From contig NZ_CP060394.1 of NCBI RefSeq assembly GCF_014274465.1, positions 4,092,001 through 4,156,000 on the forward strand: a DNA stretch of 64,000 nt, in the 5' to 3' direction. The notes under the pieces are model-generated. The model did not search any database, was not told the origin of the DNA, and saw nothing but the letters and a program-made list of their open reading frames with translations. A program made the position numbers and the translations under genes. Shown piece by piece: positions 37,315 through 51,085 of the stretch. Every line of letters begins with the position of its first letter. The stretch's first letter is position 1. This stretch comes from Alloacidobacterium dinghuense (lineage in GTDB: Bacteria; Acidobacteriota; Terriglobia; Terriglobales; Acidobacteriaceae).

Positions 37315-37405
37315 TACAATTCCCTCGTTTAACTTTTCGGGTTAAGAAAATCGGTTTATTAATTCGCTGGCATCTGTACACTGGTGCGGGAAGCTGATCA
37401 AACCT

Positions 37406-40135
37406 ATGAAGAAATCTTCACGTGTTGCTTCTGCGGCTATTGTTGCCACTGTCTTTGTTCTCGCCATTGCTACAAATGGCTTCTGTCAGTCTACTCCAGA
37501 TAAGCCGGTCTATCTTGATCCTTCTCAGCCACTGGAGAAGCGCGTCACTGATCTGATTTCGAAGATGACGCTCGAAGAAAAGGTTTCGCAGATGCAGAAC
37601 CATGCAGCGGCGATTCCCAGGTTGCAGGTTCCGGATTACGACTGGTGGAGCGAGGCTCTGCATGGCGTGGCGCGCGCCGGGTATGCCACGGTGTTTCCGC
37701 AGGCGATTGGGCTGGCGGCGACATGGGACGTGGATCTGGAGCGGAAGATTGCGGAGACGATTTCGACGGAGGCGCGGGCGAAGTTTAACGCAGCGCAGGC
37801 GGACGGCGATCACAGCATTTATCGCGGACTGGATTTCTGGTCGCCAAACATCAATATCTTTCGCGATCCGCGCTGGGGACGTGGGCAGGAGACGTATGGC
37901 GAGGATCCTTATCTGACGGGGCAGATGGGGGGTGCATTTATCAAAGGTCTGCAGGGCGATGATCCGAAGATCTTCAAGACGATCGCGACGGCCAAGCACT
38001 ACGCGGTGCACAGCGGGCCGGAGTCGACGCGGCACGCGGCGAATATCGATCCGTCTGCGCACGATCTGGAGGATACATACCTGCCACAATTTCGCATGGC
38101 GATGGTGGATGCTAGGGCAGACTCGATTATGTGCGCCTACAACAGCGTGAACGGCTCGCCTGCGTGCGCGAATGAGGATCTGCTGGTGAAGAGGCTGCGG
38201 CAGGACTGGAAATTCAACGGGTACGTGGTATCTGATTGCGGCGCGATCAGTGATTTCTTTAGCGAGAACGGGCACCATTTTTCTCCCGATGCAGCGCATG
38301 CTTCGGCAGCCGCAGTGAGGGCGGGCGATGACCTGAGTTGCGGCACGGAATATTCCGCGCTTGTGGACGCGGTGCATCAGGGATTGATCGACGAGGCGGC
38401 AATCAACCAGGCAGTGACGCGCCTGTTCACGGCGCGTTTCAAGCTCGGGCTTTTTGATCCGCCAGGATCGAATGCGTATTCGCAGATCGGGCCGAGCGAG
38501 AATGCGACTCCGGCACACGCAGAGCTGGCGCTGCAGGCTGCGCATGAGGCGATGGTTCTGCTGAAGAACGATAACAACACGCTGCCGCTGTCGAGTTCGG
38601 TGAAGACGATCGCAGTGATTGGACCGAACGCGGAGTCGCTGACGTCGCTTGAGGGTAACTACAACGGCGTGCCGCTGCATCCGGTGATTCCGCTGGCCGG
38701 ACTGCAGGCAAAGTTCGCTGACAAGGGACAGAAGGTGCTCTTCTCGCAGGGCTCTCCGCTGGTGGCTGAGCTGCCGGTGATTGTGCCGAGCACTGTTTTC
38801 AGCGATAAGGACGGGCATGCTGGCGGCTTAACGGCGGAATATTTTGCCAACGCTGATTTCAGCGGGTCGGCTACGACTCAAGTAGACGCGCATATCGATT
38901 TTGACTGGAATCGCGTGGTGCCGGTTCCGGTTCAGGGCGCGAAGGCATTCAGCGTGCGCTGGATGGGAAATTTTCAGCCGCTGGCCCCAGGCGATGTGTC
39001 GTTCACCGTCGATCACGCAGGATGCGAGCCGCACTGTGCGTCGACCTATTCCTACAGTGTTTCCTTCGACGGCAAAGAGGTGGCGAGCGATGCGAGCAAC
39101 GATCCTCACGACCCGGGAAGGCCGTTGACGTTTACTGTTCACTTTGATGATGCGAAGTCTCACGCGTTCAAGATGGAGTATTCACGGACCGGTGCGGATT
39201 ACGGAGCGGGGGTTCGGCTGAAGTGGAAGCCGGATGTTGAGCAGCTACGGCAACAGGCAATTCAGGCTGCGAACCAGGCGGATGTGGTGGTAGCGTTTGT
39301 CGGGTTGTCGCCGGAGATTGAGGGTGAAGAGATGCCGGTCCATATTCCTGGTTTCTCGGGCGGCGACCGTACGGATGTTGCGTTGCCGGCAGTGCAGCGC
39401 GATCTGCTGGATGCACTTGGCGCCACGAACAAACCGCTGGTAGTGGTTCTGCTGAATGGCAGCGCACTGGCGGTGGACTGGGCGCAGCAGCATGCTGCGG
39501 CGATTCTGGATGCTTGGTATCCGGGACAGGCGGGAGGGACGGCGATTGCGGATGTGCTTGCAGGGACGGCGAACCCTGCAGGGCGGCTAGCGGTGACGTT
39601 TTATCAGTCCGTGGATCAGCTCCCGGCTTTTGATAACTACACAATGGAAGGGCGGACGTACCGCTACTTCCGGCAGAAGCCGTTGTTCGGATTTGGATTC
39701 GGCTTGAGCTATTCGAAGTTTGCTTATAAGAATCTCAAGTTGTCGGCTCCCAAGTTGAATGCGGGTGCGCCGTTGCATGTGACTGTCGATGTGGAGAATA
39801 CGAGCGCAGTCGCGGGTGATGAGGTAGCGGAGTTGTACGTGACTCCGCCAGCGGCGTCGGGTGCGCCGAACCACTGGCTCGCCGGGTTCAAGCGGGTTCA
39901 CATAGAGCCACACAAAGTAGCGCAGGTAGCGTTCGATCTGGATGCGCGTTCGCTGAGCCTTGTCGATGAGCAGGGGCAGCGGGCAGTTACGGCTGGCGAT
40001 TACAAAATATTCGTTGGCGGTGCGCAGCCCGGAGAGACGGATTCGGGGATGGATCAGAAGTTGACGATCGTGGGCATACAGAAGGTCGACGAGGCTGTTT
40101 CCTCAGCGACCGCTCCGTCCCGCGTCCATAAATAA
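37406..40135 (+). CDS. GH3 beta-glycosidase with PA14 insert
   Basis: This 909-aa exported enzyme has a signal peptide (residues 1-27), an N-terminal GH3 barrel with YDWWSEALHGVAR, and VVSDCGA holding the catalytic Asp at about residue 277. A PA14 domain (about residues 470-620, from GLTAEYFANADF) is inserted in the second domain, and a fibronectin-III-like domain ends the protein. The subfamily covers beta-glucosidases and beta-xylosidases; SEALHG is common in xylosidase-like members. It acts in the periplasm on plant or fungal oligosaccharides. Its 3' end overlaps the convergent fucosidase by 33 bp. Confidence 0.9.
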   Translation: MKKSSRVASAAIVATVFVLAIATNGFCQSTPDKPVYLDPSQPLEKRVTDLISKMTLEEKVSQMQNHAAAIPRLQVPDYDWWSEALHGVARAGYATVFPQAIGLAATWDVDLERKIAETISTEARAKFNAAQADGDHSIYRGLDFWSPNINIFRDPRWGRGQETYGEDPYLTGQMGGAFIKGLQGDDPKIFKTIATAKHYAVHSGPESTRHAANIDPSAHDLEDTYLPQFRMAMVDARADSIMCAYNSVNGSPACANEDLLVKRLRQDWKFNGYVVSDCGAISDFFSENGHHFSPDAAHASAAAVRAGDDLSCGTEYSALVDAVHQGLIDEAAINQAVTRLFTARFKLGLFDPPGSNAYSQIGPSENATPAHAELALQAAHEAMVLLKNDNNTLPLSSSVKTIAVIGPNAESLTSLEGNYNGVPLHPVIPLAGLQAKFADKGQKVLFSQGSPLVAELPVIVPSTVFSDKDGHAGGLTAEYFANADFSGSATTQVDAHIDFDWNRVVPVPVQGAKAFSVRWMGNFQPLAPGDVSFTVDHAGCEPHCASTYSYSVSFDGKEVASDASNDPHDPGRPLTFTVHFDDAKSHAFKMEYSRTGADYGAGVRLKWKPDVEQLRQQAIQAANQADVVVAFVGLSPEIEGEEMPVHIPGFSGGDRTDVALPAVQRDLLDALGATNKPLVVVLLNGSALAVDWAQQHAAAILDAWYPGQAGGTAIADVLAGTANPAGRLAVTFYQSVDQLPAFDNYTMEGRTYRYFRQKPLFGFGFGLSYSKFAYKNLKLSAPKLNAGAPLHVTVDVENTSAVAGDEVAELYVTPPAASGAPNHWLAGFKRVHIEPHKVAQVAFDLDARSLSLVDEQGQRAVTAGDYKIFVGGAQPGETDSGMDQKLTIVGIQKVDEAVSSATAPSRVHK

Positions 40136-41520: not shown

Positions 41521-42363
41521 CTATTGTTTCGTAATTTTCAAGGGCTGCAGCAGGGCTGGCTGCACGACTGCGGTTGAGGCGAGATGCTTTTCCTTTGACT
41601 GCGCGTCTGTATGGGAATGCACGGCCTGATAGCAAAATTGCATGCCGATCATAAGCAGCCAGGCTGTGAGGACAAGACGGAGTTTTTGATTCGGTAACTT
41701 CGGCGCAAGTGCGCTCCCGGCGATGGCTCCGAAGAAGCCACCGGCGAGAAGCTTTGCCAACAATACAGCGTCGAGATTCTGGCTGAGGAGGTGCAGTCCC
41801 CCGCCGACAAGTGAGAGGCAGAGGCCGAAAGCGAGATCGGTTCCGACGATTTGCGAAGCACTCAGAGTGGTAAGGCCGAGCAACGCGATGGTGCCGAGTG
41901 CGCCTGCGCCGGAGGATGAGAATCCTACTTCGGCTCCGATAGGAAGCATGAGCACGCCGAGCCATTTGGGATGATTGCGTTCTGCGTGGAGCGCTTTGTT
42001 CTTGCGGAAGGTTCTGTAAAGGTGCCAACCGGATGTGATGACGATGATGCTGCCGAGCGCTGCGTAAAGAATGCTCTCGTGGCCTCGCTGAACCACGCTC
42101 CGAAAGAGCCACACTCCGATGATGACGCCGGGCAGGCCACCGAGGAGCATGTATCCTACGGCGCGGTAATTCACCTGTTTGCGCCACATCTGGATAGGAA
42201 CGACGATGAGTTTGACGATGGCGGAATAGACCAGGGCTGTTCCAACGGCAAGCGGCAGCGGCACATGCAGAAAGATCACGAGAATCGGCGCGGTAATGGT
42301 GCCTGCGCCAACTCCAGTGACTGCGATGGCGAACGCGATGAGGAAACCGATGGCCAGTTCCAT
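41521..42363 (-). CDS. TauE/SafE family transporter
   Basis: This 280-aa membrane protein has about eight helices and the TauE/SafE pattern: IAFAIAVTGVGAGTITAPIL at the N-terminus, ALVYSAIVKLIVVP, and a second repeat with GAEVGFSSSGAGALGTIALL. It lies 15 bp after cysH on the same strand, closing the cysDNH operon, so it probably moves sulfate or sulfite for assimilation. The direction of transport cannot be told from sequence. Confidence 0.85.
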   Translation of the reverse strand: MELAIGFLIAFAIAVTGVGAGTITAPILVIFLHVPLPLAVGTALVYSAIVKLIVVPIQMWRKQVNYRAVGYMLLGGLPGVIIGVWLFRSVVQRGHESILYAALGSIIVITSGWHLYRTFRKNKALHAERNHPKWLGVLMLPIGAEVGFSSSGAGALGTIALLGLTTLSASQIVGTDLAFGLCLSLVGGGLHLLSQNLDAVLLAKLLAGGFFGAIAGSALAPKLPNQKLRLVLTAWLLMIGMQFCYQAVHSHTDAQSKEKHLASTAVVQPALLQPLKITKQ

Positions 42364-43083: not shown

Positions 43084-44716
43084 CGTGGCCAGTTCCCTTC
43101 TCCAGTTTCAACTCGCGCAGGATTGTTTCGTTGTCGATTTGTGACGATAGCGGCCGCTTGGTGAATTCGTCTTGCCGATTGAGAGTCACAATTTCTATCT
43201 GCACTGTGTTCGGCGCGTGCACGAGGACGATCAAGCCAGCGTGGAGAAGTGCGCGCCAGACTTCCGGTTTCTGTACGCCCGTGATGACTACGTCCTCTCC
43301 GGATGCGAGCAAGGATTCTTCCAGCCCTGCGGTGAGCTCCGCATGCGGCAGCGTGAGCAAAACACCGCCATTCGATGTGGGCTGCTTCGATACCTCGTGC
43401 GTGGCGCGACGGACCATTCCGGAGCCGACCGTTGCGTTATTTGCAGGATCAATGAGGATGAAGCTTCCGGTCGTGCGGTTGTCGCGGTAGGTGTCGACGA
43501 TGAGGGGCCGGCTGGTCTGAACTCTGGCTTCGCCGATCTCGTTCAAAACGAACGACTGTGCGTGCTGTGGCTCCAGCGTTTCGATGTCGAGCCGGTGCGT
43601 GGTTTCTAGTTGTGCTTTTACGACTTGCGACGCATGTTTTAGAAGATACGTTTTGTTGGCTGCGAATGGTTCGGCATGCAGCCAGACCAATGATGCTTCA
43701 AAATCGGCGGTGGCGGTGGGTGCATCTGGCTGATGCGCGATGAGGTCGCCGCGGCTGATGTCAATCTCGTCTTCGAGCGTGAGAGTGATGGACTGCGGCG
43801 CGAATGCCGATTCGAGTTCGCCATCGAAGGTGTGGATGGCCTGAACGCGACTGGTTTGTCCTGATGGCAGAGCAATGATCGTGTCTCCCGGCTTAATGGT
43901 GCCGGATGCGATCTGCCCGGCGAAGCCGCGAAAATGCTGGTGCGGGCGGATGACGCGCTGCACTGGGAGACGAAACGGCGCTTTTGGCAGGTGCTCAGCG
44001 ATGGGCACAGACTCGAGATGTTCGAGGAGCGTTGGACCGTAGTACCAGGGCGTGCGCTCACTGGGCGTGACGACGTTGTCTCCGTCGAGCGCGCTGATGG
44101 GGATGCAGAGGAGATCCGGGATGTCGAGTTTATCGGCCAGGGCGAGCAGGTCGCGTTGATGCTGCGCGAAGATTTCTTCCGAGAAGTCGACGAGATCCAT
44201 CTTGTTAATGGCAGCGACAACATGACGAATACCCAACAACGACGCGATAAAAGCATGGCGCCGTGATTGCGTGAGGATGCCCTTACGCGCGTCGACAAGG
44301 ACAATTGCCAGCTCCGCAGTGGACGCGCCGGTGACCATGTTGCGCGTGTACTGCTCGTGGCCGGGCGTGTCGGCGATGATGAACTTTCGCTTCGGCGTCG
44401 CGAAAAAACGATACGCAACGTCGATGGTGATTCCTTGCTCGCGCTCCGCGCGAAGGCCGTCGGTGAGTTGCGCGAAGTCAATCGACGAAGCTTCGCCTGA
44501 GTGGCTGCGTGTAACGGCTTTGATCTGATCTTCGTAGACGCTGCGCGAATCGTAGAGCAGACGGCCGATAAGCGTGGATTTGCCGTCATCGACACTACCT
44601 GCCGTGGTAAAGCGCAGCAGATCCTTTTGCTGCTCGGCTGCGAGGAAGTCCTCGATGTCGAAGCGCTCTTCCACGATCTCGCGAATGTCGTCGATCACTG
44701 GCAATTCATGCGACAT
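43067..44716 (-). CDS. cysN: Sulfate adenylyltransferase subunit 1 (CysN)
   Basis: This 549-aa GTPase has GSVDDGKST (40-48), ADTPGHEQYTRNM, and INKMDLVDFSE, as in EF-Tu-like CysN. After the G-domain come two beta-barrel domains; no C-terminal APS kinase is fused. ATG 44716 shares its A with the cysD stop codon (TGATG), giving tight coupling; the longer open frame to 45151 lies over cysD and is not used. With CysD it makes APS from sulfate and ATP. Confidence 0.95.
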   Translation of the reverse strand: MSHELPVIDDIREIVEERFDIEDFLAAEQQKDLLRFTTAGSVDDGKSTLIGRLLYDSRSVYEDQIKAVTRSHSGEASSIDFAQLTDGLRAEREQGITIDVAYRFFATPKRKFIIADTPGHEQYTRNMVTGASTAELAIVLVDARKGILTQSRRHAFIASLLGIRHVVAAINKMDLVDFSEEIFAQHQRDLLALADKLDIPDLLCIPISALDGDNVVTPSERTPWYYGPTLLEHLESVPIAEHLPKAPFRLPVQRVIRPHQHFRGFAGQIASGTIKPGDTIIALPSGQTSRVQAIHTFDGELESAFAPQSITLTLEDEIDISRGDLIAHQPDAPTATADFEASLVWLHAEPFAANKTYLLKHASQVVKAQLETTHRLDIETLEPQHAQSFVLNEIGEARVQTSRPLIVDTYRDNRTTGSFILIDPANNATVGSGMVRRATHEVSKQPTSNGGVLLTLPHAELTAGLEESLLASGEDVVITGVQKPEVWRALLHAGLIVLVHAPNTVQIEIVTLNRQDEFTKRPLSSQIDNETILRELKLEKGTGHDDDKL

Positions 44717-45660
44717 CAGAAGTAGCCCTCGCGTTTCTTGATTTCCATGGAGCCGTCCTGATCGTGGTCGATGATGCGATTCGCGCGCTCGGATGAACGG
44801 AATGAAATCAACTCGGCGATGATCTTCGGCAACGTGTCGGCATCGGAGCGGATCGCTCCGGTGCACGGGCTGCATCCAAGCGAGCGCAGGCGGCAGCGCA
44901 CCCACTGCTCTTCGCCTGGCAGGCCTTTGACGAAAGGCTGCTCGATCGGGATGAGGCTGTCGCCGCGCACGAGCATGCGTCGCTCTTTTGCAAAATAGAG
45001 CGGCACGATCGGGATGTTCTCGAGATGGATATAGTGCCAGATGTCGAGTTCCGTCCAGTTCGACAGCGGGAAAACGCGGATGCTCTCGCCGGGGCCGATG
45101 CGGCCGTTGTAGAGATTCCACAGTTCGGGGCGCTGATTTTTCGGGTCCCACTGTCCGGCGCTGTCGCGGAAGGAGAAGATGCGCTCTTTCGCGCGCGAGC
45201 GTTCTTCGTCGCGACGTGCTCCTCCAAATGCTGCATCAAAGCCGTGCGTGCGCAGGCCGTCGAGCAGCGCTTGTGTCTTCAGGAGTCCGCAGCAACGTTG
45301 CGTGCCGAGTGCGACCGGGTTTGCGCCCTTCTCCAACGCATCTTCATTGCGCCAGACGATGAGGTTCAAACCAAGCTGGCGCGTATAGGCATCGCGGAAC
45401 TCAAGCATCTCGCGGAATTTGTATCCCGTGTCGACATGGAGAAGCGGAAACGGAATCGGCGCAGGATGAAATGCCTTCTGCGCGAGGCGCAGCATCACCG
45501 ATGAGTCTTTGCCGATGGAATAGAGCATCACCGGCTTCTGGAATTCTGACGCTACTTCGCGAATGATGTGGATGCTCTCGGCCTCAAGCATCTGGAGATG
45601 CGTGAGGCGCGTAGGCAACGCCGTATCAGAGGTAGACGAACTGTAGACTGCTTTGGCCAT
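44716..45660 (-). CDS. cysD: Sulfate adenylyltransferase subunit 2 (CysD)
   Basis: This 314-aa protein has the ATP-pyrophosphatase loop [15 protein letters not shown] (PP-loop), [32 protein letters not shown], and the C-terminal GYF that ends nearly all CysD proteins. It transfers AMP to sulfate. It is the first gene of the leftward cysD-cysN-cysH-tauE/safE operon. Its 5' leader holds a nine-cysteine short ORF and a terminator-like hairpin, described separately. Confidence 0.95.
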
Positions 45661-45708
45661 GGCTGGAAATCTCTTGAGTCGATTCTTGAGATTGAGCGAG
45701 AAATAGAA

Positions 45709-45739
45709 AACCCACGCTCAGAATAGTCTGACGTGGGTT
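45709..45739 (-). terminator. Attenuator-like terminator in the cysD leader
   Basis: On the minus strand AACCCACG (45739-45732) pairs with CGTGGGTT (45716-45709), with an inner TCAG/CTGA stem, and runs into TTTTCTATTT. It lies 49 bp upstream of the cysD ATG and 31 bp after the stop codon of the Cys-rich short ORF, the position expected for an attenuator. No competing antiterminator of more than four pairs was found by eye. Confidence 0.6.
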
Positions 45740-45770
45740 GATTTCTGATTAAGCTTTGTGGATAGGTAGT

Positions 45771-45866
45771 CTATCGACAGCGCTTACACCCTCGCCGACA
45801 TGCGCTGATGCTGCAACAACAGCGACACTCGATTCGACAGGCGAAGGTACAAAGCGTGGAAGCCAT
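45771..45866 (-). CDS. Cysteine-rich leader peptide upstream of cysD
   Basis: ATG 45866 opens a 31-codon frame ending at TAG 45773-45771. Nine of 31 residues are Cys (positions 6, 10, 14, 16-18, 23, 27, 30), including a CCC run, and many of the rest are Arg. A TTGACA at 45904-45899 with GATTCT 17 bp later (45881-45876) would start transcription near 45869, so the mRNA would be almost leaderless. An in-frame ATG at 45887 is an alternative. A terminator-like hairpin and then cysD follow. Translation speed through Cys codons could report Cys-tRNA charging and set read-through into cysDNH. Short Cys-rich leader ORFs acting this way are established for sulfur genes in mycobacteria; here it is inferred from sequence. 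Confidence 0.6.
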   Translation of the reverse strand: MASTLCTFACRIECRCCCSISACRRGCKRCR

Positions 45867-45898
45867 GTGGTATTCAGAATCGCGCATATGGGCGGATA

Positions 45899-45941
45899 TG
45901 TCAAACAGAGAGTTGACTTCGAGGAGGATTCCCCCTAGACT
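45899..45941. promoter_or_regulatory. Back-to-back divergent promoters of the two cysteine leaders
   Basis: Plus strand: TTGACT (45913-45918), 17-bp spacer, TAGACT (45936-45941), start near 45948. Minus strand: TTGACA (45904-45899), 17-bp spacer, GATTCT (45881-45876, a weak -10 just left of this interval). The two -35 boxes form an inverted repeat TGTCAA-N8-TTGACT, which may also serve as an operator common to both directions. Confidence 0.55.
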
Positions 45942-45950
45942 ACGTGCACG

Positions 45951-46028
45951 ATGATTCGCGTTTGGCATATTGCAAATTGTTGTTGCGCATCCAACTGTTG
46001 CGCCGGCATGTGCATGCACGTGAATTAG
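45951..46028 (+). CDS. Polycysteine leader peptide upstream of the TonB receptor gene
   Basis: ATG 45951 opens a 25-codon frame ending at TAG 46026-46028. It begins MIRVWHIAN and then has CCC at residues 10-12, CC at 16-17 and a single C at 21. The predicted transcription start near 45948 would leave only a few bases before the ATG, so the mRNA would be leaderless. A strong terminator-like hairpin follows at 46055-46084, and the receptor gene starts at 46231. Six Cys in 25 codons, in runs, next to sulfate assimilation genes, points to cysteine-dependent attenuation rather than a functional peptide. The peptide itself is not known to me. Confidence 0.6.
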   Translation: MIRVWHIANCCCASNCCAGMCMHVN

Positions 46029-46054
46029 CTATCTTCACAGAGCTTTTACATCGC

Positions 46055-46084
46055 AGCCGCCGGGCATCTCCCGAGCGGCTTTTT
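46055..46084 (+). terminator. Intrinsic terminator between leader peptide and receptor gene
   Basis: AGCCGC plus CGGG pair with CCCG plus GCGGCT (one bulged A at 46074), followed by TTTTT (46080-46084). No gene other than the short Cys-rich ORF precedes it on this strand, so it would stop the leader transcript at about 137 nt. CCGGC in codons 18-19 of the leader (46003-46007) can pair with GCCGG in the left arm (46059-46063), a possible weak antiterminator. Confidence 0.65.
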
Positions 46085-46230
46085 AATTTCCGGTAAACGA
46101 TGCGGCCAATATTTCTCCAACCCGGTCCCACATTGCAGCCAGCGATGCTGCCTCTGCGCTGTTGTTGATCCCGCCCGTCTCGCAGTTCATCCCTATCCAG
46201 CACGATTTGAATGATTTGTAAGGAGTTGTT

Positions 46231-49200
46231 ATGAGACGCGGACGTCTACGCGCACTTTCCCTCGCAATCACTATATGGGTTGCGATCTTTGCGAGCGTCA
46301 GTTTCACGCTGACAGCGAATGGGCAGATTGTCGGCGCATCGATCACAGGTACGGTTCGGGATGCTTCGGGAGCCAGTGTTCCTCAGGCGGCGATCACGGT
46401 CAGGAACCTCGAAACAGGCGCTGTACGCAAAGTTGAAAGCGATGGCGAGGGCCACTATGCTGCGCCGTCGGTTCCAGTGGGTCGCTATGAGGTGACGGCT
46501 GAGAAAGAAGGTTTCAATACAGCCACTCGCAGCGGCGTGAATCTTGTGATCGGTCAGAGTGCGGTCGTCGATCTTTCGCTTGCCGTTGGCGAGGTGCACG
46601 AACAGGTTGCGGTAACGGATGCGCCACAGACACTGAATCCAACGACCCAGCAGATCTCCGGCCTGGTGAGCGAGCGACAAGTGAAGGAGCTTCCGCTCAA
46701 TGGCCGCAGCTTCGATGAACTGATCACCTTGAATCCGGCGGTGGTGAACTATACGGGGCAGCGGTCGGGTTCGATTGGTACTTCAAATTCCTCGCCGGGA
46801 AATATGTTCGCTGTTGCCGGGAGGCGTCCACAAGACAATCTGTTTCTGCTCAATGGCGTCGAATACACCGGAGCGTCAGAGATCAATGTGACTCCCGGTG
46901 GCGTGAGCGGCCAGCTACTCGGCGTGGATGCGGTGCGCGAGTTCAATGTCGTCTCTGATACGTATGGCGCAGAATATGGGAAGCGAACTGGAGCGCAGGT
47001 CAGTATTGTAACTGCGTCAGGCACAAATAAACTACATGGCAGCGCGTTCGAGTTTCTGCGTAACAGCGCGCTGGATGCGCGTAATTATTTTGACCAGAGC
47101 GACATTCCGATATTTCAGCGCAATCAGTTTGGCGGAGCTCTCGGCGGCCCTTTGGTGAAGAGCAAGCTTCTGCTCTTCGGGAACTACGAAGGCTTCCGGC
47201 AGAATCTCGGCCTCTCAAATGTAACGCTGGTTCCGGACAACGCTGCGCGAGCGCAGGCTGTGGCCAGCGTGCAGCCGTTGCTTGCCCTGTGGCCCTTGCA
47301 AAATGGCCCGGAGTTGGGTGGCGGAATTGCCGAGGCCTTCAATCATCCTTTGCAGCGCATTCGCGAGGACTTTGGGACGACGCGCCTCGACGACAACATC
47401 TCCGCCAAAGATTCGGCTTTTGCTGTCTACACCATCGACGACAGCTCCGCGGATACGCCCACGATCAATCCTCTCAGCACGGTGGACACGGCTCTGCGCG
47501 AGCAGGTGTTGAGCGCGCAGGAGCAGCATATTTTCTCGCCGCGCGTTCTCAACACATTCCGATTTGGCTTCTCGCGTGGTGGATATTTTTTTACCGGCCA
47601 GACGCCGGTTGATCTTCCCGGATGGGTTCAAGGCAAACCGATCGGCGCGATTGTGATTGGTGGCGGAACGGCTTTGAATGGTGCGTCGCAGATCAGCCTT
47701 GCCGGCACCAACGCAGGCAGCAATTTGACCGCTGCGCGCAATTTGTTTACCTGGGATGATCACGTTTATGTCTCCCATGGGCGGAATCAACTGGAAGCAG
47801 GAGTCTGGCTGCAGAGACTACAGTCGAACAGCAATCTCGCACAGTATCAAAATGGACAGGCCTCGTTTGGAAGCTTAAGCGCGTTTCTGCAAGGCACTGT
47901 TTCCACCTTCACCGTTATCCCGTCGCCTACTGAGCTTGGCTGGCGCTCGCTCGAAGCTGCTGGATTTGTCCAGGATACGCTGCGCCTATGGCCCAATCTC
48001 GAATTGCGGCTTGGGTTCCGCTTTGAATCGACAGACGGCTGGAACGAAGCGCAAGGCAGAGCCTCGAATTTCATCTTTGATGAGAACGGTGCGCTCGAGA
48101 CGCAACCTCACATTGGCAATTCAGCGCTCACCGACAATCGTGCGAAATTCCTGCCCGAGCCTCGCATCGGCCTTGCATGGACTCCGTCGCAGAAAAGCGG
48201 AACGGTGGTCCATGCAGGATTCGGGATCTATCGCGCGTTGCTCGACAGCCTCGATTACCGGCTGGACCAGAACGCTCCGTTCAATACAACACAGAGCGTC
48301 AAAAACATCGCTGTGTCGAAATTGAATTTTGTTCCAGGCACGCCTCCGCCAGCAGGCACCCTGATTTCACCAAGCGGCATTCAGCCAGACGCGTACACGC
48401 CGACGCTGCTTTCGTGGTCGTTGAACATCGAACAGCAGATTGCTCCTGCCACATCGCTGACGCTTGGGTATATCGGCTCGCACGGATACCATCAAATTCT
48501 TTCCGAAGATGTGAATGAGCCAATTCCGACGATCTGCCCGGCGTCGCCGTGCCCGTCAAATCTGGCGGCGGGGACGGTCTACTACCCGAAGGGCGCACCA
48601 TATGCGAATCCCAAATTGGCGAACAGCACCACGTGGATTTCTGAAGGCGTGAGTTCTTACAACGGGTTGATTGTCGATGTGAATCGACGCTTCAACAATG
48701 GGCTGCAGTTCCGCGGCGTCTACACGTTCTCGAAAAATCTCGACAATGGAACGGCATGGAACAGCAGCGTGGGAGCGAATGCGCCTGGATTTGTAATGTA
48801 TCCAGCTGAGCCGCAACTCGATTACGGACCAGCGAATACCGACGTGCGCCATCTTGCCGTAATCAACGGCACTTACGAACTGCCCTTCGGCAATGGCAAG
48901 ACGTGGCTCAAAGGCCTGTCCACATGGAACGAAAGGCTGGTGAGCGGTTGGAGTACGAGTGCCATTTTCAATGTGCAATCGGGTCTTCCCTTCACTCCGC
49001 AACTTGGCTTCAATCCGTCAAACAATGGAGACAGTCGCAATCCTGTGCGGCCTTCGGTGAATCCTGATTTTCGCGGCAACGTAATCCAGGGGGGACCGGC
49101 GCAGTACTTTAATCCGGAGGCATTCGTTGTACCTTTTGCCGGAACCTACGGCAATCTTGGACGGAATACGCTGAATGGGCCGGGACTGTCGGAGTTGGAT

Positions 49201-49413
49201 CTTTCGCTGCGCAAGAATACGGCGATCTCGGAAAGAGTGAATCTGCAGTTCCGCAGCGAGTTTTTCAACATTCTGAATCACACGAATTTCGGTACGCCGA
49301 ATACTGTCGTGTACTCATCCGTATCGACTACTCCCTCGCCAACCGCAGGTGTGATCACGACGACGGCAACGACGTCACGCCAGATTCAGTTTGGCTTGAA
49401 GTTACTGTTTTGA
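46231..49413 (+). CDS. TonB-dependent receptor with carboxypeptidase-regulatory-like domain
   Basis: This 1060-aa outer-membrane protein has a signal peptide (residues 1-32), a Cna-B/carboxypeptidase-regulatory-like domain (about 36-120, from GASITGTVRDASGASVPQA), a plug domain (VKELPLNGRSFDELI, DAVREFNV) and a 22-strand-type barrel. It ends in a C-terminal Phe (QFGLKLLF), typical of outer-membrane barrels. AAGGAG precedes the ATG. This Oar-like type is abundant in acidobacteria and imports unknown large substrates. Its leader carries a polycysteine ORF and terminator and it is divergent from cysDNH, so a sulfur-containing substrate is a reasonable inference. Confidence 0.9.
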   Translation: MRRGRLRALSLAITIWVAIFASVSFTLTANGQIVGASITGTVRDASGASVPQAAITVRNLETGAVRKVESDGEGHYAAPSVPVGRYEVTAEKEGFNTATRSGVNLVIGQSAVVDLSLAVGEVHEQVAVTDAPQTLNPTTQQISGLVSERQVKELPLNGRSFDELITLNPAVVNYTGQRSGSIGTSNSSPGNMFAVAGRRPQDNLFLLNGVEYTGASEINVTPGGVSGQLLGVDAVREFNVVSDTYGAEYGKRTGAQVSIVTASGTNKLHGSAFEFLRNSALDARNYFDQSDIPIFQRNQFGGALGGPLVKSKLLLFGNYEGFRQNLGLSNVTLVPDNAARAQAVASVQPLLALWPLQNGPELGGGIAEAFNHPLQRIREDFGTTRLDDNISAKDSAFAVYTIDDSSADTPTINPLSTVDTALREQVLSAQEQHIFSPRVLNTFRFGFSRGGYFFTGQTPVDLPGWVQGKPIGAIVIGGGTALNGASQISLAGTNAGSNLTAARNLFTWDDHVYVSHGRNQLEAGVWLQRLQSNSNLAQYQNGQASFGSLSAFLQGTVSTFTVIPSPTELGWRSLEAAGFVQDTLRLWPNLELRLGFRFESTDGWNEAQGRASNFIFDENGALETQPHIGNSALTDNRAKFLPEPRIGLAWTPSQKSGTVVHAGFGIYRALLDSLDYRLDQNAPFNTTQSVKNIAVSKLNFVPGTPPPAGTLISPSGIQPDAYTPTLLSWSLNIEQQIAPATSLTLGYIGSHGYHQILSEDVNEPIPTICPASPCPSNLAAGTVYYPKGAPYANPKLANSTTWISEGVSSYNGLIVDVNRRFNNGLQFRGVYTFSKNLDNGTAWNSSVGANAPGFVMYPAEPQLDYGPANTDVRHLAVINGTYELPFGNGKTWLKGLSTWNERLVSGWSTSAIFNVQSGLPFTPQLGFNPSNNGDSRNPVRPSVNPDFRGNVIQGGPAQYFNPEAFVVPFAGTYGNLGRNTLNGPGLSELDLSLRKNTAISERVNLQFRSEFFNILNHTNFGTPNTVVYSSVSTTPSPTAGVITTTATTSRQIQFGLKLLF

Positions 49414-49612: not shown

Positions 49613-51085
49613 TTACAAGACATCAGAGTGAGATAAGAGTGAGTTAAGCGGGGACGAGCTCGAATCTCGCTCTTCCTGACCTTCAGAAATTTCTGTGGAA
49701 ATCTCTCCTGCTGGCATCATCTTGTCAGCATACTCAGCCGGGAAATTCAGCTTGGCGTTCACTCCGTTCCGCTTGTACGCCTCCGCGTCGTAGCACCTGG
49801 CGGCGTCTTCAGCGTTGTCGAAGATGCCGAGGTACACCTTCTGCCCGTTGACCGACATTTTGGCGGCGAAGTGGTTCCCCTGTGGATACACACCGAAGTA
49901 GCCGCTCTTGCTCGTGGACTTCTCGGTACTCAAGGCTGTGGGAATCTCGGCTGGAAGGGCCAGCACCTTCACCAGCTCGTCGTTCGCCGGGCGTACCAGC
50001 GGAATGTTGCCGCCCTTCTTCTTCCCGTACTTCTCAGTCATCTGCTCGGTCGAATGGCGCATCAGGTACTGCTGCACTTTCAGCGGCGTCTTCAGGTCTC
50101 GCAGCAGACTACGGTACGTGTGCCGGAAGCTGTGGAATCCCAGGTTGGCGATCCCCATGCGCTTGCCCAGCTCCACCAGATACTCCTGCATCGAATCGCG
50201 CCAGTAGGGGCGGCCTGTCACCGGGTTGCCGAACACCCAGCCGTTCACGCTTGGGAACTGATCCCTCCATCTCCGTAGGATCACCCACAGACTCTCGTTC
50301 ATCGGGACGGCTTCTTCGGAGGAAACGGTCTTCGTGCCAGCCACATGCTTGCCCACCGAGGCTCTTTCGATAGAGATGAACCCGGCTTCCATGTCGATCA
50401 CTTCCCACCGGAGCGCCAGAATCTCACTGATACGGGCTCCGGTACACATGGCGACCGCGATCATCACGCGCAGGATCACCGGCAGCGTCGTGTCGTTCAT
50501 CATGAACTCGAACTGCTCGGGCTCGATGAGGTCGCGTTCGCGGGTGATCTCGCCCGGCTTGGCCTTCACCTTCAGCTTGGCAATGATATTCTCGGTCGGC
50601 TCCAGAAAGCCCCAAATCATAGCCCGATCGAACATCCGGTGCAGCAGCCACTTGATGTTGTTCCGGCTCTTGCTGGCCATCGGTCGTATCGGCCCATGCC
50701 CTGGAAGCGTCTTCAGCTCGGCCAGCCACTTCTCGATGGCGTAGGCGTTTTTGAGCATGGTGTCGAGCCGCTCGTCTCCCCAGCGTTCGCGGAGTCGGCG
50801 TATGTTCGACATGTCGCTCACCACTGTGCTATGGCGATCATCCATGTCCTGCACGTAGCGGTCGGCCAGATGCCCGAACGTGAATATCTCAACGCGCTCG
50901 TTGATCTCAGAGAGCCGGGACAGTGCTGCTTTTCTAGCGGCAGCTTCAGTCGGGTACTTCTCCACCGTGCCAATTTCAAGCGTTGCGTACTTCGCACCAT
51001 CGTTGTAGCGCAGCAGCCAAAGGTCGGGCAGCGTCTTGCGCTTCTTGCGCTCAATGTACCCGTTCTGAAACCGGTTCCTCTGCAT
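49613..51085 (-). CDS. Tyrosine-type site-specific integrase with C-terminal AP2-like domain
   Basis: This 490-aa recombinase has an N-terminal arm and core-binding region (1-180) and a catalytic domain with R218 (TGARISEIL), HxxR at 318-321 (FHSFRHTY), H344 and nucleophile Y353 (TEKYGK). After a linker, residues about 395-449 ([36 protein letters not shown]) match the AP2 DNA-binding fold, which is known from HNH homing endonucleases and some phage integrases. It integrates and excises the island that starts at the tRNA. It overlaps the excisionase-like gene by 35 bases. Confidence 0.9.

Follow-up and report, generated by a model that had tools for sequence, protein, structure and literature searches.

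Here we asked why the gene for a TonB-dependent-receptor-type outer-membrane protein should be preceded by a short ORF with runs of cysteine codons and by an intrinsic terminator, as if its transcription depended on the supply of cysteine. The locus lies within a 64,000-nucleotide stretch of Alloacidobacterium dinghuense DNA (the whole of which is hereafter called the window), taken from a genome of 6.27 Mb in one contig. The initial annotation had placed in front of the receptor a promoter, an ATG at 45951, a 25-codon ORF with CCC, CC and C and a terminator, followed by the receptor ATG at 46231, and each of these was found where it had been claimed. That list of elements is entirely correct; it was incomplete, as a further polycysteine ORF (46100-46168), in the interval between the terminator and the receptor, had been overlooked.

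The receptor gene (plus strand) and cysD (minus strand) are separated by 570 bp, in which promoter-like sites stand back-to-back. On the plus strand, leader 1 is followed by an intrinsic terminator, leader 2 (with its Cys codons at the end), a C-rich spacer, a ribosome site and the receptor gene. The features of the locus are as follows:

45913..45941, plus: receptor promoter TTGACT-N17-TAGACT (pattern scan; TTGAC at -35 in 28 of the 51 leaders examined)
45951..46028, plus: leader 1, 25-codon polycysteine ORF MIRVWHIANCCCASNCCAGMCMHVN (ORF list, conservation)
45999..46007, plus: candidate antiterminator segment inside leader 1, predicted by folding to pair with the terminator 5' arm
46054..46085, plus: intrinsic terminator following leader 1, its stem reaching 46081 ahead of a U tract (-18.0 kcal/mol)
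46100..46168, plus: leader 2, 22-codon ORF MRPIFLQPGPTLQPAMLPLRCC ending in RCC-stop (ORF list, counterparts in relatives)
46169..46219, plus: C-rich, G-poor spacer from leader 2 to the receptor ribosome site; by its composition a possible Rho loading region
46231..49413, plus: TonB-dependent-receptor-type outer-membrane protein (PF13620 + PF25183 by Pfam), with AAGGAG at 46220
45876..45904, minus: divergent cys-operon promoter TTGACA-N17-GATTCT (read by eye)
45771..45866, minus: polycysteine leader of the cys operon MASTLCTFACRIECRCCCSISACRRGCKRCR (ORF scan)
45708..45740, minus: intrinsic terminator after the cys-operon leader (-18.5 kcal/mol, U tract)
44716..45660, minus: cysD, for sulfate adenylyltransferase subunit 2; cysN, cysH and a TauE/SafE transporter gene (41521-42363) come after it on that strand

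The -35 boxes of the divergent cysDNH-TauE promoter and of the receptor promoter are only 8 bp apart. Immediately 3' of the receptor gene, and convergent with it, lies a phage-integrase-family gene (49613-51085, minus strand).

The match of promoter, ATG and terminator had been judged hard to explain otherwise. As patterns alone these elements do no better than chance, and it is conservation that raises them above it: three promoter-like sites were found against 2.0 expected in a pattern scan of 4 kb, and the hairpin at 46054-46081 is absent from the list made by a simple terminator rule in the same scan.

We consider it likely that two ribosome-mediated cysteine attenuators, arranged in series on one transcript, control the receptor gene, the first being of the trp type and the second perhaps Rho-dependent. 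Attenuation, already proposed in the initial annotation, thus stands, with two leaders in series in place of the single one then pictured. Of the possible readings, cysteine attenuation has the best support for this receptor, through conservation of the ORF, its persistence beside the receptor away from cysD, the presence of such leaders before cysD and sulfite reductase and antiterminator pairing at group level. Sequence comparison supports the conservation of the leaders, the placement of a terminator in a subset of loci and antiterminator complementarity there, the composition of the spacer and the occurrence of such leaders before sulfur genes; translation of the leaders, the response to cysteine, the role of Rho and the cargo are what we infer.

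Conservation of the polycysteine leaders

Leaders were scored by a strict rule (CC plus a third Cys within three residues, in an ORF of at most 60 codons within 500 nt upstream). The 80 scored loci comprised 76 of at least 80 further receptor loci among the matches listed in named genomes, together with the window and loci G020, G022 and G034. Four loci with less than 500 nt upstream (L125, L168, L178 and L191) were excluded, and L116, L117 and L149 seem to duplicate the contigs of G001, G003 and G023. Polycysteine ORFs do precede other acidobacterial receptors, where the initial annotation had proposed to look for them: one or more strict ORFs were found in 52/80 loci and two in 25/80, against 6/80 with at least one and none with two in the antisense control. 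Shuffled sequences (30 rounds) gave one leader in a mean of 3.2 loci (maximum 6) and never gave two.

The six closest orthologs found in 61 genomes (G001, G003, G020, G022, G023 and G034, respectively 92, 88, 81, 69, 64 and 63 % identical) all have two upstream cysteine-cluster ORFs, so that loss of the ORF from close relatives that retain the receptor, which would have spoken against attenuation, was not observed; leader 2 has a counterpart in each of the six. In G034 the receptor is on one large contig and cysD on another, and in G023 the two are on separate short contigs; the leaders are still there, which indicates that they travel with the receptor. The window's genome has 75 PF25183 match pieces; among 40 of its other receptor genes of this family, a strict ORF precedes two (antisense, 0/40), and a 57 %-identical paralog in this genome has no upstream polycysteine leader.

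These figures bear on whether the polycysteine ORFs are functionless for the receptor, being by-products of TGT/TTG repeats or loans from the divergent cys operon. In the window, cysD does run divergently from the receptor, and TGTTGTTGT repeats are often present in leader 2, but we regard this explanation as highly improbable, given that leaders are kept where receptor and cysD are far apart (G034; G023, on short contigs), that the antisense and shuffled controls fall far below the observed count, as do the other receptors of the genome, and that terminators are placed behind leaders, with native pairing stronger than swapped pairing, in 22 loci (see below).

A receptor tree (FastTree, 83 rows, midpoint root; L136 and L148 dropped as too short, G020, G022 and G034 absent) placed the window on a 50-row side with a branch support of 100. 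On this side, a strict leader lies within 560 nt in 42 of the 49 scored loci, and 29 have at least two leaders by a looser rule; L121 has a looser leader only. Five of the six window-side loci without a near leader have one farther upstream, at -583 in L172 and between -883 and -2216 in L139, L159, L169 and L170, in a wider search (3.5 kb) whose chance rate is higher and in which one further L159 match sits inside a gene; in L194 no leader was found even at 3.5 kb. The far-upstream leader precedes an Rrf2-family gene in L139 and a PF03601 gene in L159 and L170, in each case co-directional with the receptor, so that a shared operon is possible. Off the window's side of the tree, leaders were found in 10/31 loci, or 7/28 without G020, G022 and G034.

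An Rrf2-family gene stands just upstream of the receptor in L130 and L139 (Pfam-confirmed) and in L132 and L170 (by clustering). No polycysteine leader was found in L130 and L132, which suggests an alternative, protein-based control in these two.

Terminator, candidate antiterminator and start of leader 1

The window hairpin, CAGCCGCCGGGCATCTCCCGAGCGGCTT, spans 46054-46081 with a folding energy of -18.0 kcal/mol and is followed by TTTAATTT. By our own rule, a terminator follows the leader in 22 of the 52 strict-leader loci; where a leader 2 accompanies a strict leader 1 (31 loci), 19 have one between the two. The intrinsic step is therefore not universal. Six loci (L174, L175, L177, L179, L189 and L190) have two leaders with no hairpin between them by the terminator rule, and their first leader may act by a different route. 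Where a terminator was found, 13-52 nt separate the stop codon of leader 1 from the stem, with 22-30 nt in 16/22 loci.

In trp- and his-type attenuators, a leader peptide rich in the regulated amino acid governs the choice between antiterminator and terminator. Under the mechanism that we propose for leader 1, a ribosome amply supplied with Cys-tRNA would reach the stop codon and mask the 3' part of the ORF, allowing the 46054-46081 hairpin to form and the RNA to end at about 137 nt. With Cys-tRNA scarce, it would stall at CCC/CC, the 3' part of the ORF would bind the 5' arm of the hairpin, and RNA polymerase would go on.

When a ribosome was modelled as stalled at the first Cys cluster, the terminator 5' arm paired upstream, for the most part with the 3' end of the leader ORF; the mean probability was 0.57, and dinucleotide-shuffled spacers gave 0.45 (z 3.8, 22 loci). 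Once the ribosome was moved to the stop codon, this upstream pairing ranged from 0.00 to 0.42 across loci. For the window, the stall gave 0.80 (shuffles, 0.37) and a ribosome at the stop gave 0.03. At 8/22 loci, at least 0.30 of the shuffles matched the native pairing.

Swapping the partners between loci gave a similar picture: the duplex of leader 3' end and terminator arm had a mean energy of -21.2 kcal/mol in native combinations and about -17.0 kcal/mol in swapped ones, a difference equalled in 0 of 20,000 permutations (22 loci), with the window's own duplex ranking only 7th among the 22 arms. The predicted antiterminator complementarity is thus supported as a group result and is weak for the window alone in the swap test. 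The leaders of sulfite-reductase and cysD genes behaved likewise, 26/34 having a terminator (none was found by the same rule in the other 8/34) and native duplexes reaching -18.1 against -14.1 kcal/mol when swapped (0/20,000 permutations); the 12 cysD loci of this test were chosen by eye from 27, and L012, L019, L021, L022, L025, L027 and L028 were left out of it despite a CC-containing sORF towards cysD. At equilibrium, the terminator dominated under the stall (probability at least 0.90) in 12/22 loci, the window included (0.97), so that antitermination would need to be co-transcriptional, the antiterminator winning by forming first, which is the common course in attenuation of that kind.

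Leader 1 thus resembles trp/his-type attenuators in its run of Cys codons, its terminator in the window and, at group level, its stall-dependent antiterminator pairing. It differs from them in that the targets include a receptor, the antiterminator strand lies inside the 3' end of the leader ORF and the start is probably near-leaderless.

This last property rests on the position of the start codon, 9 nt past the -10 hexamer in the window (the ORF ends at 46028, stop included). Among 51 leaders, 32 combine a promoter score of at least 8.5 with a start codon 6-13 nt after the -10 (mode 6), a survey in which the in-frame start with the best promoter was picked for each leader, which favours a near-leaderless outcome, and in which the most upstream strict ORF per locus was used, some of these being leader 2. 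An SD-like motif was found in just 4/51. With such spacing, transcription would begin on or beside the start codon; if the predicted promoter is correct, leader 1 is probably near-leaderless, and would be translated from the 5' end of the transcript or a few bases off it.

For cysteine, the leaders use TGT 307 times and TGC 91 times, whereas long ORFs on these contigs use them 371 and 1136 times; the preference of the leaders is to be expected if slow decoding is useful. A genome-wide TGYTGYTGYTRA search was rejected as a regulon list: it returned 44 matches in the genome, and each of the 30 inspected lay under a longer open frame (at least 113 aa).

The second leader and its spacer

Counterparts of leader 2 in relatives finish with CCC, CCCR or CC, and over 47 loci, which were selected for C-terminal Cys codons, these codons abut the stop or sit 1-3 residues before it. 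The spacer that follows is 30-125 nt long (median 84), with mean contents of C and G of 35 % and 17 %. There is more C than G in 46/46 of these spacers, compared with 56/109 control 5' regions of the same contigs. Speaking against a special role of the spacer, the bias is also present in the coding sequence of leader 2 (41/46) and, more weakly, before receptors without leader 2 (24/33; C 28 %, G 22 %).

Rho loads on C-rich, G-poor RNA, and the composition of the spacer suggests that the second step, at leader 2, is perhaps Rho-dependent. With cysteine present, the ribosome would depart from leader 2 and leave the spacer bare, whereupon Rho would load and terminate transcription; with cysteine scarce, a ribosome halted on the final codons would mask the beginning of the spacer. 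At tnaC, a Rho site is hidden by a ribosome that has stalled where the leader ORF ends, and the stall is caused by binding of tryptophan, a signal of excess. Leader 2 would be tna-like in the proposed masking of a Rho site, and has a C-rich, G-poor stretch directly after its stop (46/46); here the stall would come from a lack of charged tRNA, whereas in tnaC it comes from tryptophan excess.

The form of leader 2 has precedents. Cysteine leader peptides have been predicted before the cys operons of Mycobacterium and P. acnes and before B. longum cbs, with Cys runs near the stop and no terminator hairpin, and a tna-like Rho mechanism has been proposed for them, with tna named as the parallel; its authors rated this mechanism as weakly supported for the mycobacterial cysteine leaders (PMC1262725). 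Leader 2 resembles these leaders, and the accessible text of that paper describes among them no intrinsic-terminator form, no tandem arrangement, no member of the Acidobacteriota and no TonB-type receptor. Tandem ORFs occur in Salmonella mgtCBR, where two short leader ORFs control transcription into the gene in response to ATP and proline (PMC3641672); as far as that system is described there, it differs in reading two signals, whereas both leaders here would read one amino acid.

Leader 2 might instead act on translation, by uncovering of the ribosome site or by re-initiation, with Rho playing no part and leader 1 remaining a trp-type cysteine attenuator. Leader 2 is near the receptor start, a Shine-Dalgarno-like motif precedes that start in 46/47 leader-2 loci, and mycobacterial polycysteine sORFs are summarised in the consulted part of PMC9031893 as regulating downstream translation by attenuation. 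We nonetheless hold this to be unlikely, although deserving to be kept in mind, as the median spacer of 84 nt with its bias of C over G suits Rho better and the pre-Cys sequence of leader 2 pairs no better with its own Shine-Dalgarno than with those of other loci. On the latter result (native and swapped duplex energies alike, p 0.61, 46 loci), hiding of the receptor Shine-Dalgarno by leader 2 was rejected.

In a more distant ortholog (L043 of G053), an ORF ending in RCC (1384-1495) overlaps the receptor start.

The receptor among sulfur genes with similar leaders

The initial annotation had regarded a TonB-dependent receptor under cysteine attenuation as an oddity. That view did not hold: the receptor is no outlier and looks like a member of a cysteine regulon, since similar leaders stand before cysD, sulfite reductase and some PF03601 genes. 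Among the best 30 PF01077 (sulfite/nitrite reductase) loci of relatives, a strict leader was found in 22/30 (antisense, 1/30), and the sulfite reductase of the window's own genome has the leader MSHSTIPVLCCGCCICVRRTLSE followed by a terminator. Leaders towards cysD occur in the genus to which the window belongs and in several further genera. For PF03601 genes, the count was 6/30 against 2/30 in antisense, so that at most part of this family belongs to the group. PF03601-type genes near the receptor themselves have polycysteine leaders in L137, L159, L162 and L170 (Pfam-confirmed in L159 and L170, where they lie upstream and co-directional).

A control set of other intergenic regions yielded a polycysteine leader in 29/182. 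Behind these 29 leaders stand cysD (10), the same receptor (5), PF03601 genes (4), genes without evident link (6) and, one each, sulfite reductase, siroheme synthase, a tetrapyrrole methylase and an NMT1-like (SsuA-like) binding protein; six of these assignments were Pfam-checked and the others made by eye from the encoded proteins. In a phylum-wide PF01077 sample, drawn mostly from other classes (29 new loci, of which L300 had too short an upstream region), a leader was found in 1/28. Short frames (361-491 aa) make up ten of these 28, and some of them are paired side by side; by our own reading they may be like dissimilatory DsrAB, making this sample a weak test of the trait's reach; on that weak evidence, the trait seems confined to this class.

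Within the window's own genome, the sulfite reductase locus L221 (near 6095123) has a terminator-type leader, and the PF03601 locus L229 (near 2945478) one of the C-terminal-CCCR type. The receptor combines in tandem the two leader types seen singly at these loci.

The closest known parallel in content is mycobacterial: short leaderless polycysteine ORFs (Canestrari et al. 2020, as cited in PMC13236596 and PMC9094748), with attenuation as summarised in PMC9031893. As portrayed in these sources, they share with the present leaders the short ORFs, the contiguous Cys codons before sulfur genes and cysteine attenuation (here proposed). Differences from that description are the phylum, the frequent intrinsic terminator with its predicted antiterminator segment, the second ORF and the outer-membrane receptor as target. 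New here are the Acidobacteriota, the terminator together with a second leader, and the TonB-type target. The literature searched, mostly outside subscription papers, returned among the matches listed no prior case in Acidobacteria and no amino-acid-attenuated TonB receptor.

Control of a TonB-type gene by an upstream ORF does have a counterpart in CruR (DUF2946) of Bordetella pertussis, which precedes the TonB-dependent transporter gene bfrG/CrtA and works through premature Rho-dependent termination (PMC9426467, PMC12914433). CruR has 145 residues, is predicted to be exported, carries CXXC and a C-terminal RAPP arrest motif, and senses copper (PMC9426467). Common to both, on the published description available to us, is an upstream ORF governing a TonB-type transporter through premature termination (here proposed); unlike CruR as so described, the present leaders are short, lack DUF2946 and RAPP, and would answer to a different signal.

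This parallel, in which a Cys-containing uORF precedes a TonB-dependent transporter (PMC9426467), together with the possible binding of metal by Cys clusters, raises the question of whether the leaders are metal (copper) sensors of the CruR kind. We find this very improbable. Pfam profiles, that of DUF2946 included, matched none of six leader peptides at E up to 1; a RAPP-like motif occurs in 0/86 leader peptides and CXXC in 12/86; the leaders also precede sulfate-assimilation genes; and the bias towards TGT, the codon that is rarer in long ORFs, would affect decoding and not metal binding. Copper sensing was rejected on the first two of these results, i.e. the lack of DUF2946 in the six peptides and of RAPP in the 86. 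A riboswitch (e.g. for cobalamin) was likewise ruled out by the absence of an Rfam match in the leader: covariance models run over 44000-47000 of the window matched no leader and gave one sub-threshold snoRNA match (44632-44699).

The two-step cysteine attenuation that we favour, with the receptor made only in sulfur or cysteine shortage, would place its synthesis alongside that of cysDNH, sulfite reductase and a PF03601 transporter, and the receptor would probably import a sulfur source. Among the matches listed, an 'Acidobacteriales bacterium' MAG has a receptor with 92 % identity to that of the window, and Acidobacterium sp. S8 one with 87 %. In the window receptor, Pfam recognises just the barrel and a carboxypeptidase-regulatory-like domain, NCBIfam has no name for it, and an AlphaFold2 model (30 sequences) had a mean pLDDT of 52.9, too poor for fold searches. 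In the receptor flanks (up to about 5 kb a side, 80 loci), a cysD/cysH-type gene was present at 17 loci, cysN at 17 and a TauE-type gene at 13. From the regulation and this neighbourhood, the cargo is probably a sulfur-containing nutrient.

Acidobacteria possess TonB-type receptors by the dozen that closely resemble one another, and sequence alone does not tell what this one imports; a switch for cysteine that is conserved among relatives points to sulfur as the nutrient probably served and makes a substrate search practical. The fullest version of our proposal, which we put forward tentatively and at somewhat less than even chances, is that one Acidobacteriaceae receptor family is a sulfur-starvation importer, double-locked by an intrinsic and then a Rho-dependent cysteine attenuator on one near-leaderless transcript. 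If so, two locks reading the same tRNA would lower leakage multiplicatively and steepen the response, and the receptor would be, to our knowledge, the first of the TonB type under amino-acid attenuation and would define a system for organosulfur uptake in soil acidobacteria.

Elsewhere in the window, a GTG-initiated ORF with 8 Cys (37384-37503, plus strand) overlaps the start of a GH3 gene in another frame and is probably a frame-shifted signal sequence.
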